A stretch of DNA of 64,000 nucleotides from Gemmatimonadota bacterium (GTDB lineage: Bacteria > JAAXHH01). The translations under genes were made by a program, and so were the position numbers. The stretch lies in contig JAPPBT010000065.1 in NCBI GenBank assembly GCA_026702745.1, positions 1 to 64,000 of the forward strand, read 5' to 3'. The notes beneath the pieces were generated by a model. The model did not search any database, was not told the origin of the DNA, and was given only the letters and a program-made list of their open reading frames with translations. This document shows positions 11,804-20,066 of this stretch, one piece after another (position 1 is the first letter of the stretch; each line of letters opens with the position of its first letter).

Positions 11804-13648
11804 TCAATCATCGACGTGCCCCGGCGTCACTTCCACCGCGCCGGACGCCGATACTCTGACCAGCATGGCGTCTTCGGGTTCGAAGGCCAGGCGCACCGTC
11901 CGCTCCCGGCCGTTGACGTGCAGGACCACCTCCCGCTCGACCATGCGGGTGGAACGCCAGCCCTCGTAGGCCATGGGGTACCGGATCCGCTTCGTATCGG
12001 GATGGGCAAAGAAGACGTGGTAGTCGCCATCGACCTCCCGGCACCAGAACTCGGGCGCGTCCCGGCCGCTGACTAGGGGAGGATGGCGAAGCGCGACGCC
12101 CGGATCCGCGGTGACCGACGCTTGGCTCATCAGTTCCCCCAGCCGATCCGCGTAATCCGCTGGCGGACGGTGGCCGGGAACGGAGGGCCGGCGCGGAATG
12201 CAGACCCGGGCGCCCTCCCGGGCGAGGCGAAGCAGGGCCGAAAGGCCTTCGCCGTCCAGCCAATCCACGTCAACGTAGATCGTCGAAAACGCCGCCTCTC
12301 CGTATCGCACGCGCCCGTCCTCCACCACCGCATCCTCCAGGAAGGGCGTCGAGATCCACAGGGGATGGTAGCCGAGCAGGCTGCCGGGCCGATCAACGGT
12401 CTGCAGCTCCCAGTAGTAGTTGGCGGCTGGTCCGCGCCGGTCCTCGGGCAGCATGTGGCGCATCCAGTGGTCTTCCAGCGGAAGGTACACCGCCACGTCC
12501 GTGTAGGTCCTGCCCTGCTTGACGAAATCGGCCGACTCCGCCAGGTAGGCGTTGAAGGCCGGAAGCCGGCCGGCGAACCCGCTGTCCGGACCGACGTGCG
12601 TGGTCGCGTAGAAGGTGTTGGTCCCGCCGGGCGCGTTGTACGGCATGCCGTGCCAGACGATGTGGTTGACGCCGTTGGCGAACACCGCGTCCGCCATGAG
12701 CTTCAGGTCCTCCACCTTCTCCTCGCCGTGATGGGGCGACGGTGCGGGCCACGGCTCGTAGCCGTAGATACAGGTGAAGGTCTCGCAGGTCACGACGGGC
12801 CGCGCGCCCAGGGCCGCCGCCGACCCGGGGATGGCCGAGAAGAAGGTCTCGAACAGCAGGGCCTCGGATTCCGGGACGTCCACGAGTGCGAAGGCTTCCA
12901 GCAGGTCCGCTGGCGCCCCGTGGCACTGCACGCGGCTCACGGCGCCGAGGCGGCGGCAGATGTCGGCGTAGGGCCTGAAGAAGCCCTCGATCGCCGCGTC
13001 CGACAGGATCTTCCGGTAGTCGTACCGTACATCGGGATGCTGGTCGATCGATGCCTTGAAGGGTTCAAGGTCATACCTGAAGCGATCCCGGAAGACCGGA
13101 TCCAGGTGGGCGCTCCAGAGCCCCTCCGGAAATACCTCCCACGAATCGGAGAACAGCGCCGAAGTAGTGCCTCGCAGAGCCGGTTTCAGCGCGCCGCCGA
13201 CGTGGCCGGCGTACCGCTCCAGCGCGTCCGGGTCCAGGTGGTTCAGGATCCGGCCCTGGCCGTAGTAGGACAGCTCCCACGACTTCTCGAGCCGCTGGTC
13301 CGACGGTCCGTCGAATACTTGTCCCGCATCCTCCTCCGGTACGATCGACCCGCCAAAGGGCCAGGAGGTGCTGAAAGTGAAGTCGCACCCGATGCCCAGC
13401 CGGTCCGCCTCCTCCTTGGCGCCGGCGACCAGGCCAGACCACGCCTCGCTCAGCCAGCGGGGTCCTTCTCCGGCCCCGGGCTGCGGGTACATGAAGGCGA
13501 TCTCCACCCCTCCGAACCCCTGGTCCCGCACCCATTTGAGCTGCGTCCGGACGTCTTCCATTCTGATGTCGTCGTAGAACCACCACCAGCGCGTGTAGGG
13601 ACGGGCGTCCGAAAAGGGCCGGTAGGTCCTGGTCAGTTCGTTCGACAT
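11804..13648 (-). CDS. Glycoside hydrolase, GH106 (alpha-L-rhamnosidase)-like
   Basis: 614 residues from ATG 13648, which has GGGGAG five bases upstream; a longer in-frame opening to 14047 overlaps the divergent gene and is not believed. The N-terminus (PYTRWWWFYDDIRMEDVRTQ, QGFGGVEIAFMYP) is the characteristic TIM-barrel opening of GH106-like proteins. SWPFGGSIVPEEDAGQ, LFSDSWEVFPEGLW and RVQCHGAPADLLEAF follow. It is shorter than most characterised GH106 members (roughly 800-1100 residues) and has no signal peptide, so it probably acts on oligosaccharides inside the cell. Catalytic residues cannot be assigned firmly. Diverges from the 13764 gene. Confidence 0.72.
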   Translation of the reverse strand: MSNELTRTYRPFSDARPYTRWWWFYDDIRMEDVRTQLKWVRDQGFGGVEIAFMYPQPGAGEGPRWLSEAWSGLVAGAKEEADRLGIGCDFTFSTSWPFGGSIVPEEDAGQVFDGPSDQRLEKSWELSYYGQGRILNHLDPDALERYAGHVGGALKPALRGTTSALFSDSWEVFPEGLWSAHLDPVFRDRFRYDLEPFKASIDQHPDVRYDYRKILSDAAIEGFFRPYADICRRLGAVSRVQCHGAPADLLEAFALVDVPESEALLFETFFSAIPGSAAALGARPVVTCETFTCIYGYEPWPAPSPHHGEEKVEDLKLMADAVFANGVNHIVWHGMPYNAPGGTNTFYATTHVGPDSGFAGRLPAFNAYLAESADFVKQGRTYTDVAVYLPLEDHWMRHMLPEDRRGPAANYYWELQTVDRPGSLLGYHPLWISTPFLEDAVVEDGRVRYGEAAFSTIYVDVDWLDGEGLSALLRLAREGARVCIPRRPSVPGHRPPADYADRLGELMSQASVTADPGVALRHPPLVSGRDAPEFWCREVDGDYHVFFAHPDTKRIRYPMAYEGWRSTRMVEREVVLHVNGRERTVRLAFEPEDAMLVRVSASGAVEVTPGHVDD

Positions 13649-13763
13649 GACTGCTCCCCGTGTCGATGATTTCGCCATGCATAATCTATACCGGAATCCC
13701 GATGGGAACACTATATTATGCGGGACCCGGACACACCGTGTTCCGTACACTTTCGGGGGACCC

Positions 13764-14546
13764 ATGCAGACCATTGATTTCGCGCGTTCAACCTTTACTT
13801 TCCGGGTGGATTCCGAGAAGAAGCCACCCAAGACCGTGACCCGGAAGGTGCCGTATTCTCTGAACAACGCCCGCATACCGATAGAAGCCGCCCTGACCGT
13901 GACCGCGAAGGACGGCGGATTCCGGGAAGAGTACGTCCTCGGAGTGAGTTGCAAGACCGAACAGGTCGGGGTGGAGCGGGATATCTGGCACATCCCCAAC
14001 GCGGACTTCAAGCCGATCTTCTCGTCGGACACCTTCATGGCCATCAAGACCTACGAAGTGGCCGACCGGGGCGCCACGCTCTACCCGCCCTCCCTCGGCG
14101 AGCAGCCTGAACGGCAGATCGTGGCCATCGAGGAAACTTTCGAGGACGTCCGGATCGACCTGTCCCGTGTCGACGGACGAGTCCTGGAGACGCCGCGGGC
14201 CATCGTGGAGGCCGTCCTCGGCAATGTCCCTCTGAACGCCCGGACGACCATCGGGAACGACCGGTACGCCGCGTTGCTCGAGTACCCGGTCAAGACGATC
14301 AATGCCAACGAGCGGGACTGGATCTATCAGCCGGACACGGGCCCGGTGCTGCTGCCGGACCTGTCCCGCGACCCGGAAGACATGATAGAAGGGATCGAAC
14401 TGGCCTTTGCGGCGTTCAATACACCGGACTGGGTGGAGTTCATCGTCCGGGTTCCCACGCCCGTCGCCGAGGGCGTCAATGTGTACCACTACGCGGAACC
14501 CGTGCGGATGAACTGCGTTAACGAAGTGGTGGTCCCGCGGCACTGA
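13764..14546 (+). CDS. Conserved-looking hypothetical protein, 260 residues
   Basis: Start at ATG 13764 with GGGGGA three bases upstream; begins MQTIDFARSTFTFRVDSEKK. No signal peptide, membrane segment or known motif was recognised. The protein is rich in beta-type segments with acidic and aromatic residues (ERDIWHIPNADFKPIF, ANERDWIYQPDTGPVLLPD, TPDWVEFIVRVPTPVAEGV). It ends VVVPRH, with the stop codon at the start of a 9-bp repeat tract. It diverges from the GH106-like gene across 115 bases, which hints at shared regulation, but no function can be proposed from sequence. Confidence 0.65.
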   Translation: MQTIDFARSTFTFRVDSEKKPPKTVTRKVPYSLNNARIPIEAALTVTAKDGGFREEYVLGVSCKTEQVGVERDIWHIPNADFKPIFSSDTFMAIKTYEVADRGATLYPPSLGEQPERQIVAIEETFEDVRIDLSRVDGRVLETPRAIVEAVLGNVPLNARTTIGNDRYAALLEYPVKTINANERDWIYQPDTGPVLLPDLSRDPEDMIEGIELAFAAFNTPDWVEFIVRVPTPVAEGVNVYHYAEPVRMNCVNEVVVPRH

Positions 14547-14630
14547 GCGCATCTGGCGCACTTAGCACACCGAGTGATCATGCGCGCCGAACGCACTGAG
14601 CGCACTGAGGCACACTGAGCATACTGGGAG
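14541..14630 (+). repeat. 9-bp tandem repeat (CACTGAGCG type) from a stop codon into the next gene's leader
   Basis: Unit CACTGAGCG begins at 14541, inside the last codon and TGA stop (14544-14546) of the hypothetical gene. It continues as degenerate 9-mers to 14576, is interrupted for 17 bases, and resumes at 14594 as CACTGAGCG, CACTGAGGC and CACTGAGCA. The array ends in GGGAGAAGG, the ribosome-site region of the gene starting at 14643. Confidence 0.85.
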
Positions 14631-14642
14631 AAGGTCGGCGTC

Positions 14643-16343
14643 ATGCGGTTTTCCTCGAACTGTTTTTTCACGTGGCTGTGTGGTGCAGGCATCCTGTTTT
14701 TGATGGCCACCGCGATGGTGGCGGGCACACCGTACACGGTATGCGCGCAAGACGCCGCCTACGCGCAGGGGACGCGGGGCAGTGTAACCGGCAGCGCGGG
14801 AAATCCGGGCGCGGAAGAGGCCGTGGAAGAGGATCCTGTGCAGCGCGTGCTGCGGGAACGCGTCGACGATTACGGCCAGACGGTGGGCGTCGTCGCCGGG
14901 ATCATCCGCGGCATCAACCGGTACGTCTACGCCCACGGCACGCTCAACCGCGGCACGATCCGGCGCGTGAGTGGCATGACGGTCTTCGAGATCGGGCAGT
15001 TGAGCAGCCTGTACACCACGGCCATGCTGTCCCTCATGGTCCAGCGGGGCGACGTAAACCTGACCGACGAGGTGTCCGCCTATCTCCCGGAGACGGTGAC
15101 CGTCCCGACCACGCGTGCAGGAAACCCCATCCTGATCGAGCACCTCGCCACCCACACCTCGGGACTGCCCCGCCTGCCGGACAACCTGGTTTCTGACGAC
15201 CCGGACGATCCGCTGAAGGGGTATTCGGTGGAACTGATGTACGCGTTTCTCGATCGGTACGCGGAAACACAGCGCGACGGGCACGCGTTTCCGTTCGATT
15301 TCGAAGATCCGGACAGCGAAGATCCTATGGATCGGGAAGGCGAAAGTCCCCTGGCTCCGGATAGCGAAGGTTCACTCGGTCGGAAAGCCGAAGACCGTTC
15401 GGATACGCCGGGCCGAAATGTACCGGAGTACCGCGACGGTATGGAGGGCGTTATCGGGACGGAAGACCGCTACGCCTATTCCGATCTCGGCATGGGGCTC
15501 CTGGGACACGTGCTCGAACGCGCGGCCGGCGAATCCTATGACCAATTGATCCGGGTATTGCTCGGCGATCCGCTCAAGCTGGCCAACACGGCCAATGCGT
15601 CTACGCCGTCCATGCGGACGTACCTGGCGACCGGACACGACGACGCCCGCAGGCCCGTTCCCTCCTGGTCCGACACGACCCTCGTGGGCGGTACGGGTCT
15701 TCGGTCCAACCTCCTGGACATGATGACCCTGGTGTCGGCCAGCATGGGGATCATCTACGCCCTGCCGGAAGATTTCACCGAAGACGATTCGACTCGCTAC
15801 CACGCGTCCTTCGACAGCCTCATCGTGGCCCGGCATCCCACGGACGAGGAGGACGTCCAGACCGCGCTGGGCTGGAAAGTGCGCCAGGACGAGCGAGGCC
15901 GCGACATCCACTGGCTCACCGGCCGGACCAATGGGTTCTACGCCTTCGCCGCCTTTCTCAAGCAGTGGCGCAAGGGCGTCGTGGTCCTGTCCAACAGCTC
16001 GGCCAGCGTCGAGGACATCGGGTTCCACCTGCTGAGCGCCCGGAACCCCCTGGCGCCGCCCCCGAGGAAGGTCGTGCACCTGACCGAGGACGCCTACGTG
16101 GCCTGCACAGGCACCTACGCCTTTTCCCCCGAATTCACCGTGGAAATCACCTACAGCGACGGCATGCTCTACGGCCAGCCGCCCGGCCAGCCCCGGAGCG
16201 AACTCGTCCTCGAATCGTCAGGTGATTTCTACCTGGAAGAAGAGGATGCCCGGATCACCTTCGTCCCGGACGAAGAGGGAAACGTCGACCACTTCCTCTT
16301 TCTCCAGGACGGGCAAACTCACCGGGCGGAACGGGTGAGGTAG
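14643..16343 (+). CDS. Exported serine beta-lactamase-fold protein lacking the SxxK catalytic pair
   Basis: 566 residues with an N-terminal signal peptide (LCGAGILFLMATAMVAG). The fold is that of PF00144 (class C beta-lactamase, esterase, D-aminopeptidase): LIEHLATHTSGLPRLP, YAYSDLGMGLLGHVLE (YxN position altered to YSD), WSDTTLVGGTGLRSNLLDM, HWLTGRTNGFYAF. At the place of the nucleophile, where family members read (E)IGSxxK, this protein reads FEIGQLSSLYTT, so both Ser and Lys of SxxK are replaced. An acidic insert (about residues 218-250, DPDSEDPMDREGE) and a C-terminal lipocalin-like tail complete it. It is therefore likely non-catalytic, or uses other residues. Confidence 0.8.
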   Translation: MRFSSNCFFTWLCGAGILFLMATAMVAGTPYTVCAQDAAYAQGTRGSVTGSAGNPGAEEAVEEDPVQRVLRERVDDYGQTVGVVAGIIRGINRYVYAHGTLNRGTIRRVSGMTVFEIGQLSSLYTTAMLSLMVQRGDVNLTDEVSAYLPETVTVPTTRAGNPILIEHLATHTSGLPRLPDNLVSDDPDDPLKGYSVELMYAFLDRYAETQRDGHAFPFDFEDPDSEDPMDREGESPLAPDSEGSLGRKAEDRSDTPGRNVPEYRDGMEGVIGTEDRYAYSDLGMGLLGHVLERAAGESYDQLIRVLLGDPLKLANTANASTPSMRTYLATGHDDARRPVPSWSDTTLVGGTGLRSNLLDMMTLVSASMGIIYALPEDFTEDDSTRYHASFDSLIVARHPTDEEDVQTALGWKVRQDERGRDIHWLTGRTNGFYAFAAFLKQWRKGVVVLSNSSASVEDIGFHLLSARNPLAPPPRKVVHLTEDAYVACTGTYAFSPEFTVEITYSDGMLYGQPPGQPRSELVLESSGDFYLEEEDARITFVPDEEGNVDHFLFLQDGQTHRAERVR

Positions 16344-18368: not shown

Positions 18369-18758
18369 TTAAGCCGTATTCTGCTCTATTTGTTCCCATA
18401 TACCTCTAGCAACATCGCACATCCTACGGGATAGTTCTATTGGCGGCTTGCCGCCTGGAAGCAACCCCAAATCGGAAGGATATCGTGCGTCGACGTACAG
18501 TTCATTCAATTGGAACAGAAGATCAGAATTTAAGTCGAGTTCTATGTGTTTTTCAATCTTGTTTCTCAATGTAATCAGGTCATGGACCTTTGGCGTAGAA
18601 CGCTCGTATTCTTCAAGGATGGCTTTGAATGATTTTTCGATCGCTTGCTGACAGTGGAAGGCAACCATATGAGTCAGGTCCTCACGATCTATGATCTCTT
18701 CCGCGACCTCCAAGTCATCACGGGCCAATTCCAACCAAGCTTTAGCCTGTTTTCTCAT
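18369..18758 (-). CDS. HEPN-domain protein of a HEPN-MNT toxin-antitoxin pair
   Basis: 129 residues, all-alpha, matching COG2250-type HEPN: AKAWLELARDDLEVAEEII, MVAFHCQQAIEKSFKAIL, KVHDLITLRNKI, ELYVDARYPSD. Its start overlaps the end of the upstream nucleotidyltransferase gene by 17 bases, the classic arrangement. In characterised pairs the HEPN protein is an RNase toxin and the MNT partner adds nucleotides to inactivate it. The canonical Rx4-6H RNase motif is not placed clearly here. An REDLTH run exists near residue 25 but lies before the helix where the motif usually falls, so RNase activity is uncertain. Confidence 0.85.
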   Translation of the reverse strand: MRKQAKAWLELARDDLEVAEEIIDREDLTHMVAFHCQQAIEKSFKAILEEYERSTPKVHDLITLRNKIEKHIELDLNSDLLFQLNELYVDARYPSDLGLLPGGKPPIELSRRMCDVARGIWEQIEQNTA

Positions 18759-19083
18759 ATACGGTTTTTCCCGATTTCTCTATTTCATTTAGAAACGATA
18801 CTCCTTGATGCAATAGGTATTCGTACTCAGCCCTGGTATAGACCAGGAGATCAATGGGAATCTCCTTGTTGATCTCCTCTATACAGTGTCTCGCCGAGAT
18901 TTTCTTGTCTATTCTCTCCTCGTAAGTCTGCGAGATGATCTCAGAGTCTAAGATGACCAAAAGGTCGACATCACTCTCCAGATGTTCTCTATCCATTGCA
19001 TGGGATCCGAAAAGCACAATCCGGTACGGGTCGAGCGTCAACAGGCGCGTAACAATGTTGTTCACGGTATTGGTTTGAGCCAC
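18742..19083 (-). CDS. Minimal nucleotidyltransferase (MntA-like) of the HEPN-MNT pair
   Basis: 113 residues. The pol-beta nucleotidyltransferase signature is intact: YRIVLFGSHAMDREHLESD, then VDLLVIL, giving GSx(10)DxD with two metal-binding aspartates. A third acidic strand is seen at IPIDLLVYT. In type VII systems this protein acts as antitoxin by transferring AMP to the HEPN toxin. It is first in the two-gene operon and overlaps the HEPN gene by 17 bases. Upstream lies an AT-rich 176-base region shared with the divergent AbiEi gene. Confidence 0.88.
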   Translation of the reverse strand: MAQTNTVNNIVTRLLTLDPYRIVLFGSHAMDREHLESDVDLLVILDSEIISQTYEERIDKKISARHCIEEINKEIPIDLLVYTRAEYEYLLHQGVSFLNEIEKSGKTVYEKTG

Positions 19084-19259
19084 TATCTTTCCTCCGGTTG
19101 CTGGACTTTATTGTAGTCAGCATCCGATGGGCTATCGTGTCTTCATCCCAGTACAATCACATCAATATCATGAAGATCTCTTGATTAGGAAAGACCCGAT
19201 GCTTGATCGGTCAAATTCAATATATTATATTTTCATTAATTCACATTAATTGAGATATT

Positions 19260-20066
19260 ATGAAGACAAAAAGTACTCCTGATAGTAAACGAGCATACCC
19301 AATCGGAAGGCAGAGGCTTTCAACTGTACTACGGGACGCGGACGATGTCATCGGAACGGACGATGTGGTCAGAACGCTACTGGTAACCCGGATAGAAGCA
19401 TCCAAGCTACTTTCCAGATGGACCAGTCAAGGATGGTTGACACGCATAGGCCGCGGGGCGTACGTACCCGTTCCTTTGGAACTGCTTGGCAACCGCTATG
19501 TACTGGACGATCACTGGGTACTGGTGCCAGTGCTCTACGGATTATCCTATATCGGCGGTTGGACCGCTGCAGAATACTGGGAACTGACGGAACAAATGTT
19601 TAAAGACACGGTCGTATTGACGTCGAATCCGGTGCGTAAAAAACACCAGGTACGTCATGGAGCCCGGTTTTGGTTGTCTCATATTCACAAACGCAAGGTG
19701 TTCGGTACCAAGGCAGTCTGGCGCGGTAACACCAGGGTACTTGTCTCAGATATTCACCGAACCATAATCGACATACTGGACAACCCAAAGCTGGGTGGTG
19801 GCATCCAGCATGTATCGGATTGCCTGGCCGTCTACTTGAAGAATCCGGACCGAAGTGATGTAACGCTCATTGAATATGCGGAGAATCTAGGCAATGGTGC
19901 CGTGATGAAGCGCTTGGGCTACTTGGTGGATAGGCTCTCTGGCCCATCGAAACTTTCGATATCGTGCCGAGAACGAATGACTGCAGGTAATGCCAAACTT
20001 GATTCCGCACTCAAATGTACGCGCCTGATAACCAGATGGCGGTTGTGGGTTCCACCAAATTGGTAA
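19260..20066 (+). CDS. AbiEi-family antitoxin/regulator, partner apparently missing
   Basis: 268 residues. The N-terminal winged helix is seen in DVVRTLLVTRIEASKLLSRW followed by GWLTRIGRGAYVPVPLELL, the standard AbiEi_4 opening. The core continues SYIGGWTAAEYWELTEQMF and TRVLVSDIHRTIIDILDNP. AbiEi represses its own operon and antagonises the AbiEii nucleotidyltransferase toxin in type IV systems. No AbiEii gene follows: 39 bases after the stop the convergent AbrB gene begins. It is therefore a solitary regulator, or the toxin was lost. The near-palindrome TTGATCGGTCAA (19203-19214) in the AT-rich leader could be an operator. Clearly lower GC than the flanking genes. Confidence 0.82.
   Translation: MKTKSTPDSKRAYPIGRQRLSTVLRDADDVIGTDDVVRTLLVTRIEASKLLSRWTSQGWLTRIGRGAYVPVPLELLGNRYVLDDHWVLVPVLYGLSYIGGWTAAEYWELTEQMFKDTVVLTSNPVRKKHQVRHGARFWLSHIHKRKVFGTKAVWRGNTRVLVSDIHRTIIDILDNPKLGGGIQHVSDCLAVYLKNPDRSDVTLIEYAENLGNGAVMKRLGYLVDRLSGPSKLSISCRERMTAGNAKLDSALKCTRLITRWRLWVPPNW

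Follow-up and report, generated by a model that had tools for sequence, protein, structure and literature searches.

The 64,000-nt window analysed here, i.e. positions 1 to 64,000 of contig JAPPBT010000065.1 from a Gemmatimonadota bacterium (assembly GCA_026702745.1), contains at 14643-16343 an ORF whose product matches the PF00144 profile (E 1.4e-38; 133 bits against a cut-off of 27) and, at its C-terminal end, DUF3471 (E 3.7e-7; a scan that covered the window protein only). The gene, its parts and the two genes discussed with it are as follows.

11804-13669, reverse strand: divergent gene for a GH106 (alpha-L-rhamnosidase)-like protein, the third member of the gene trio described below (E 1.7e-17)
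13764-14546, forward strand: orphan gene directly upstream of the PF00144 gene, 260 amino acids from a conserved Met (orthologue search, profile scans)
14643-16343, forward strand: putative pseudo-beta-lactamase gene, 566 amino acids plus stop (ORF, domain matches, orthologues)
14643-14753, forward strand: signal-peptide-like N-terminus, approximately residues 1-37 (by eye)
14997-15008, forward strand: former SxxK motif, now Q119-L-S-S122 (alignment with relatives)
15153-15170, forward strand: retained HTSGLP, residues 171-176 (HISGLP in one orthologue)
15255-15467, forward strand: acidic, length-variable linker, approximately residues 205-275 (alignment, substitution rates, pLDDT)
15477-15485, forward strand: former YxN motif, now Y279-S-D281 (alignment)
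15909-15923, forward strand: former HxG strand, now H423-W-L425-T-G427 (alignment)
16080-16298, forward strand: C-terminal DUF3471 domain, residues 480-552 matched (Pfam match)

Both the profile match and the predicted structure place the protein in the beta-lactamase-fold family, and none of the motifs SxxK, YxN and [KH]xG was found in it. About 110 residues remain after the PF00144 match, and these carry the one DUF3471 match. Orthologues from the window's genus have the acidic linker and those of genomes G001 and G014 lack it; most of it has a pLDDT below 50 in the second structural model described below. No lipobox was seen by eye in the N-termini of the window protein or its orthologues. 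In the window's genome (3.88 Mb in 102 contigs), one further PF00144 protein was found. In another PF00144 family of these genomes, which carries SLSK, the gene is interrupted by TAG in G008 (L055, 1393-2556) and split between frames in G011 (L061).

Alignment with relatives judged active from their motifs places Q119 (14997-14999), within the segment FEIGQLSSLYTT (residues 115-126), at the nucleophilic Ser and S122 (15006-15008) at the Lys of SxxK, D281 at the Asn of YxN, and L425 at the His of HxG. Since L425 (15915-15917) occupies the position of the catalytic H/K of [KH]xG, which is H in all 36 related hydrolases compared, motif 3 is lost too, except its Gly; Tyr279 and Gly427 are still present. 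W424 anchors an ungapped stretch of the alignment in which H423 falls two residues upstream of the motif position; the equivalent of H423 in the same relatives is V (33 of 36), Y (2) or I (1). HTSGLP or near variants of it are present across the relatives. The first-pass annotation of this DNA, made from the letters alone, had read Q and S in place of the catalytic Ser and Lys, YSD (residues 279-281) in place of YxN, and a surviving HTSGLP at residues 171-176; these readings were borne out, with Ser and Lys absent and Asn replaced in every orthologue identified. Its claim that an HxG-like motif is kept in HWLTGRTNG was mistaken, as L425 holds the catalytic position and H423 stands two residues upstream of it.

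Of the 16 sampled genomes of the phylum, 13 have an orthologue, and these 13 represent three genera and two families: 11 of the 12 genomes of the window's genus, one from a second genus of the same family (G001) and one from a second family (G014). No orthologue was found at E 1e-20 in G012, G013 and G015, and the G012 assembly (520 contigs) may miss it. The survey of close homologues proposed with the first-pass annotation thus found Ser, Lys and Asn replaced in all 13 proteins and the motif 3 His/Lys in 12 of them. The Ser position is occupied by Q (11 orthologues), P (1) or A (1), and the Lys position by S (12) or, in the most distant orthologue, G. In the YxN motif, Tyr is kept throughout and Asn is replaced by D (11) or E (2), while the His position of motif 3 is L in 12 orthologues, the window protein included, and K in one. 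This last protein, from G014, has KRG at [KH]xG and so keeps the Lys that active members of the wider PF00144 family also use at motif 3; the loss of this motif is therefore not alike everywhere in the clade.

Among the other PF00144 proteins of the phylum that were fetched and have a readable motif 1, SxxK is present in 42 of 42, many of which are orthologues of one another. These counts were obtained after identical or contained ORFs had been collapsed to 64, namely the 13 orthologues, five proteins from outside the phylum, the 42 with motif 1 and four fragments without it; three PF00144 places (G001:C334, G001:C34 and G012:C391) were left out. Chance and sequencing or assembly error were considered as explanations for the missing residues and rejected, because the replacement of Ser, Lys and Asn is common to 13 orthologues from 13 genomes whereas all 42 other proteins have SxxK. 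Outside the phylum, all 36 related hydrolases that were compared have retained Ser, Lys, Tyr, Asn, His and Gly, and they are presumed from these motifs to be active. These 36 were chosen by similarity and not by motif; 29 of them come from a sample of 249 genomes belonging to one phylum, and the others are L115, L116, L064-L067 and L011; 13 further matching genomes of that sample were left out of the comparison. Of eight matching loci in the named collection, seven encode close relatives and belong to metagenome-assembled genomes labelled Candidatus Latescibacterota or Gemmatimonadetes, and the eighth (Marivirga) is distant. Protein scans of the viral-contig collection found no relative, and two degenerate motif scans found PF00144-like proteins on contigs of that collection.

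In an IQ-TREE analysis of 49 proteins (midpoint-rooted, the root falling on the long branch of L011), the 13 orthologues form one clade that has 100/100 support and sits on a stem branch 0.81 changes per site long. The clade is nested among SxxK proteins, the nearest being L115 and L183, followed by L178 and L192; the fork that joins it to L115 and L183 is unstarred, with a support of 94/87, which leaves the identity of the closest sister uncertain. A single loss before the two families split is the simplest reading of this tree.

The pseudoenzyme gene is under purifying selection. Its frame is free of internal stops in all 13 orthologues, and dN/dS between the window gene and its ten congeners is 0.195-0.368; against G001 and G014, dS is 2.3-2.8, i.e. 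near saturation. In the region round the former active site, six pairs gave a pN of 0.000-0.041 and a pS of 0.100-0.251; the acidic linker evolves far more quickly (pN 0.14-0.42, pS 0.24-0.72). In five pairs, dN/dS was 0.20-0.32 for the pseudoenzyme, 0.06-0.21 for four neighbouring genes and 0.13-0.22 for an active PF00144 paralogue, which indicates a looser constraint on the pseudoenzyme.

The structure was predicted twice. The first model, built with eight orthologues 79-90% identical to the window protein, had a pLDDT of 29 and was discarded. The second, covering residues 62-566, used 18 sequences, nine of which are distant PF00144-like proteins from viral-collection contigs, and reached a mean pLDDT of 62.4 and a pTM of 0.63; of its 505 residues, 228 score at least 70 and 168 below 50. 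Its C-terminal part is poor (residues 462-505 below 50), and the predicted fold may lean on the nine viral-collection rows of the alignment. Its best VIA-align match was 2qmi (Z 34.5, rmsd 2.9, 324 residues, 20% identity), and the top Foldseek match was the esterase 7spn (E 2.3e-23). Superposition on AmpC had been proposed together with the structure prediction as a check; the predicted core superposes on many class C enzymes at Z of about 31-32. According to this model, the core of the window protein is a beta-lactamase fold.

Class C-like serine hydrolases of the DUF3471 type align colinearly with the window protein into the C-terminal part, and L115 (the protein of G265) matches it over most of its length with 254.8 bits; hydrolases of the L115, L183, L178 and L192 type keep SxxK, YxN and HxG, which the window protein does not. 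The top NCBIfam model is AmpH (NF007943; D-Ala-D-Ala carboxypeptidase/endopeptidase; E 1.6e-26), but the score of 92.9 bits falls short of the cut-off of 266 and the catalytic residues are absent from the window protein. The top structural match, 2qmi, is an octameric penicillin-binding-protein homologue from Pyrococcus abyssi, which we take to be Pab87 and, unlike the window protein, an active serine peptidase.

The clade has gained residues as well as lost them. All 13 orthologues have R336, H423, P514, E534 and an acid at position 281, and none of the 36 relatives does; H550, likewise fixed in the clade, occurs once among the relatives. The conserved residues lost in addition to the catalytic ones include G351, present in 35 of the 36 relatives; it belongs to the loop before LRS, which probably corresponds to the Tyr221 wall of AmpC. 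These gains, together with the loss of G351, fit with a remodelled groove. Several of the fixed residues, e.g. P514, E534 and H550, lie in the DUF3471 domain.

The reading that we favour, with a probability of roughly 0.6, is that the gene encodes an exported, non-catalytic descendant of an AmpH/class C-like hydrolase, most likely with a binding, sensing or scaffold role exercised through the old groove or through a partner. The ancestor would have been a DUF3471-bearing serine hydrolase of this type, and one ancestor within the phylum would have lost both the nucleophilic Ser and the general-base Lys, along with the YxN Asn and the HxG His. The fold would have been kept and the groove remodelled by the change of Asn to an acid (D/E281) and by the new invariant His423 and Arg336, with the Ser position turning into Q, P or A. 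As a periplasmic protein, the product would then bind a ligand in the former substrate groove, or a partner, and may act alongside the co-inherited GH106-like and orphan genes. Intact retention despite catalytic loss suggests binding, not cutting. Some observations weigh against this reading: the looser constraint on the gene, the Lys kept at motif 3 in G014, the possible separation of the trio's products into different compartments, and the variation of the Ser position among genera, which suits a site open to everything except Ser more than a single new contact there. The loss of the catalytic set, the single clade, the purifying selection and the conserved gene trio are observed directly, and export and the binding role are inferred. 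The 'exported pseudoenzyme' of the first-pass annotation is well supported in its second word by the loss of Ser, Lys and Asn in all 13 orthologues and of the motif 3 H/K in 12, and by the purifying selection; for its first word, the signal-like stretch was recognized by eye. The binding of peptidoglycan or D-amino acids that it put forward is a possible, putative role.

Of the alternatives, the strongest, although still unlikely, is that the groove has been rebuilt as a new non-serine active site from acid 281 (D/E), Tyr279, His423 and Arg336. The presence of the acid, His423 and Arg336 in every orthologue and in none of the 36 relatives would be expected of such a site, as would the very low rate of non-synonymous change round the former active site; however, no known enzyme with this constellation was identified here, and fixed residues could equally serve binding or folding. 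It is more improbable that the protein is a pure structural scaffold, with a vestigial groove and a functional surface or DUF3471 domain. The clade-specific fixed residues of the C-terminal domain (P514, E534, H550 and L552-L554) would suit a scaffold, but the former groove motifs are among the best-conserved stretches within the genus.

A shifted serine nucleophile, i.e. S121, S122 or an SxxK elsewhere that keeps the hydrolase active, is very improbable. Every orthologue has S121, but its position is not new, being T (27) or S (9) in the 36 relatives, and S122 is G in one orthologue. An SDGK or SGGK string is found in the C-terminal domain of eight of the 13; the window protein, which contains no SxxK string at all, has SDGM there (residues 505-508), and the string is missing from five orthologues in total. 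The G001 and G014 orthologues have unrelated SxxK strings of their own, no replacement SxxK is common to all 13, and the only invariant lysines, K312 and K440, are far from the motif in sequence. The first-pass annotation had suggested a shifted nucleophile in QLSSL, which is disfavoured by the Gly that replaces S122 in the most distant orthologue, by the Thr or Ser that active relatives have at the position of S121 and by the lack of SxxK in the window protein; another Ser-Lys pair, which it had named as the finding that would overturn the pseudoenzyme, was not found in sequence, as no SxxK pair is common to the clade. Decay of a gene without present function is scarcely credible: the catalytic motifs are gone and dN/dS is above that of the neighbours, but the 13 frames lack internal stops, dN/dS is low, the former active site is nearly unchanged within the genus, and the gene has been kept over two families and three genera in a fixed gene trio.

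A limited literature search yielded one individual description of a protein that has a beta-lactamase fold and no SxxK, MipB of Pseudomonas aeruginosa. By that description (mBio 2024, PMC10936184), MipB is a lipoprotein whose beta-lactamase fold lacks SxxK, has degenerate motifs 2 and 3 and is accompanied by two eight-stranded barrels at the C-terminus; it co-purifies with MipA, an outer-membrane barrel, and the two are described together as sensors of polymyxin. Set beside MipB by that description, the window protein is similar in having a serine beta-lactamase fold without SxxK, degenerate motifs 2 and 3, a putative envelope location, extra C-terminal domain(s) and a gene neighbour or operon. 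It differs in having one DUF3471 match in about 110 extra residues, as against two barrels in about 220 in the MipB account; and in having no adjacent mipA (OmpV-type barrel) gene, its window neighbours being the orphan gene and a Peripla_BP_6 gene. MipB is a lipoprotein; in the window protein, no lipobox was seen by eye. MipB is a precedent for a protein of this kind. Among 966 serine proteases from five families, one of them PF00144, 42 putative inactive homologues are reported (PMC2605481). The conserved pseudoenzyme clade is real, and the kind of protein is one already known through MipB.

The pseudoenzyme, a close orthologue of the orphan gene (>500 bits) and the GH106-like gene share their distribution, each occurring in the same set of 13 genomes out of 16. 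At the thresholds used, none of the three was found in G012, G013 and G015, which contain a weaker relative of the orphan gene. The orphan product has no Pfam or NCBIfam match, a search of the PDB up to E 1 gave a single match at E 0.35, and no relatives outside the phylum were found at E 0.001 in 272 genomes. The orphan gene adjoins the pseudoenzyme gene in nine of nine mapped loci, lying about 1 kb away in G001, and the GH106-like gene adjoins the orphan gene in eight of nine, lying about 2.7 kb off in L007. On its other side in the window, the pseudoenzyme gene is followed by a gene for a Peripla_BP_6 binding protein, which is found at five of the seven loci that were mapped within the window's genus. 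A sulfatase-like gene lies 3' of the pseudoenzyme gene in the more distant G001 and G014 (L068, 6919-8367; L069, 4840-6294) and was found at none of those seven loci. Since neither the orphan product nor the GH106-like product has an obvious signal peptide by eye, the products of the trio may lie in different compartments and not be direct partners. A more far-reaching reading, in which the site was erased once, was rebuilt as a ligand-binding or catalytic site round acid 281, His423 and Arg336 and now serves a phylum-specific three-gene carbohydrate or envelope module, is doubtful.

These data tie a pseudoenzyme to two co-inherited genes in a phylum of which 16 genomes were sampled. Since the clade is well bounded, the single loss can be placed on the tree and presumably active sisters exist, the replacement of catalysis can be tested position by position. 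They also advise caution in annotation: the PF00144 match alone should not earn this protein the label beta-lactamase or 'serine hydrolase'.

Several minor observations concern the surroundings of these genes. The gap between the orphan and pseudoenzyme genes (14541-14626) contains five degenerate CACTGAGCGCA-like direct repeats; GCRCACTGAG-like sites are not enriched in the window as a whole, where 10 were found and 8.4 are expected by chance. No tRNA genes were found within the window. A further match, confined to the final 51 positions of the pseudoenzyme profile, occurs at locus L034 (G002:C49:65395-65547), about 4.8 kb past the full gene. Farther downstream in the window, the ORFs at 18369-20066 encode what we take, by eye from their translations, to be a HEPN/nucleotidyltransferase-like pair and an AbiEi-like protein.
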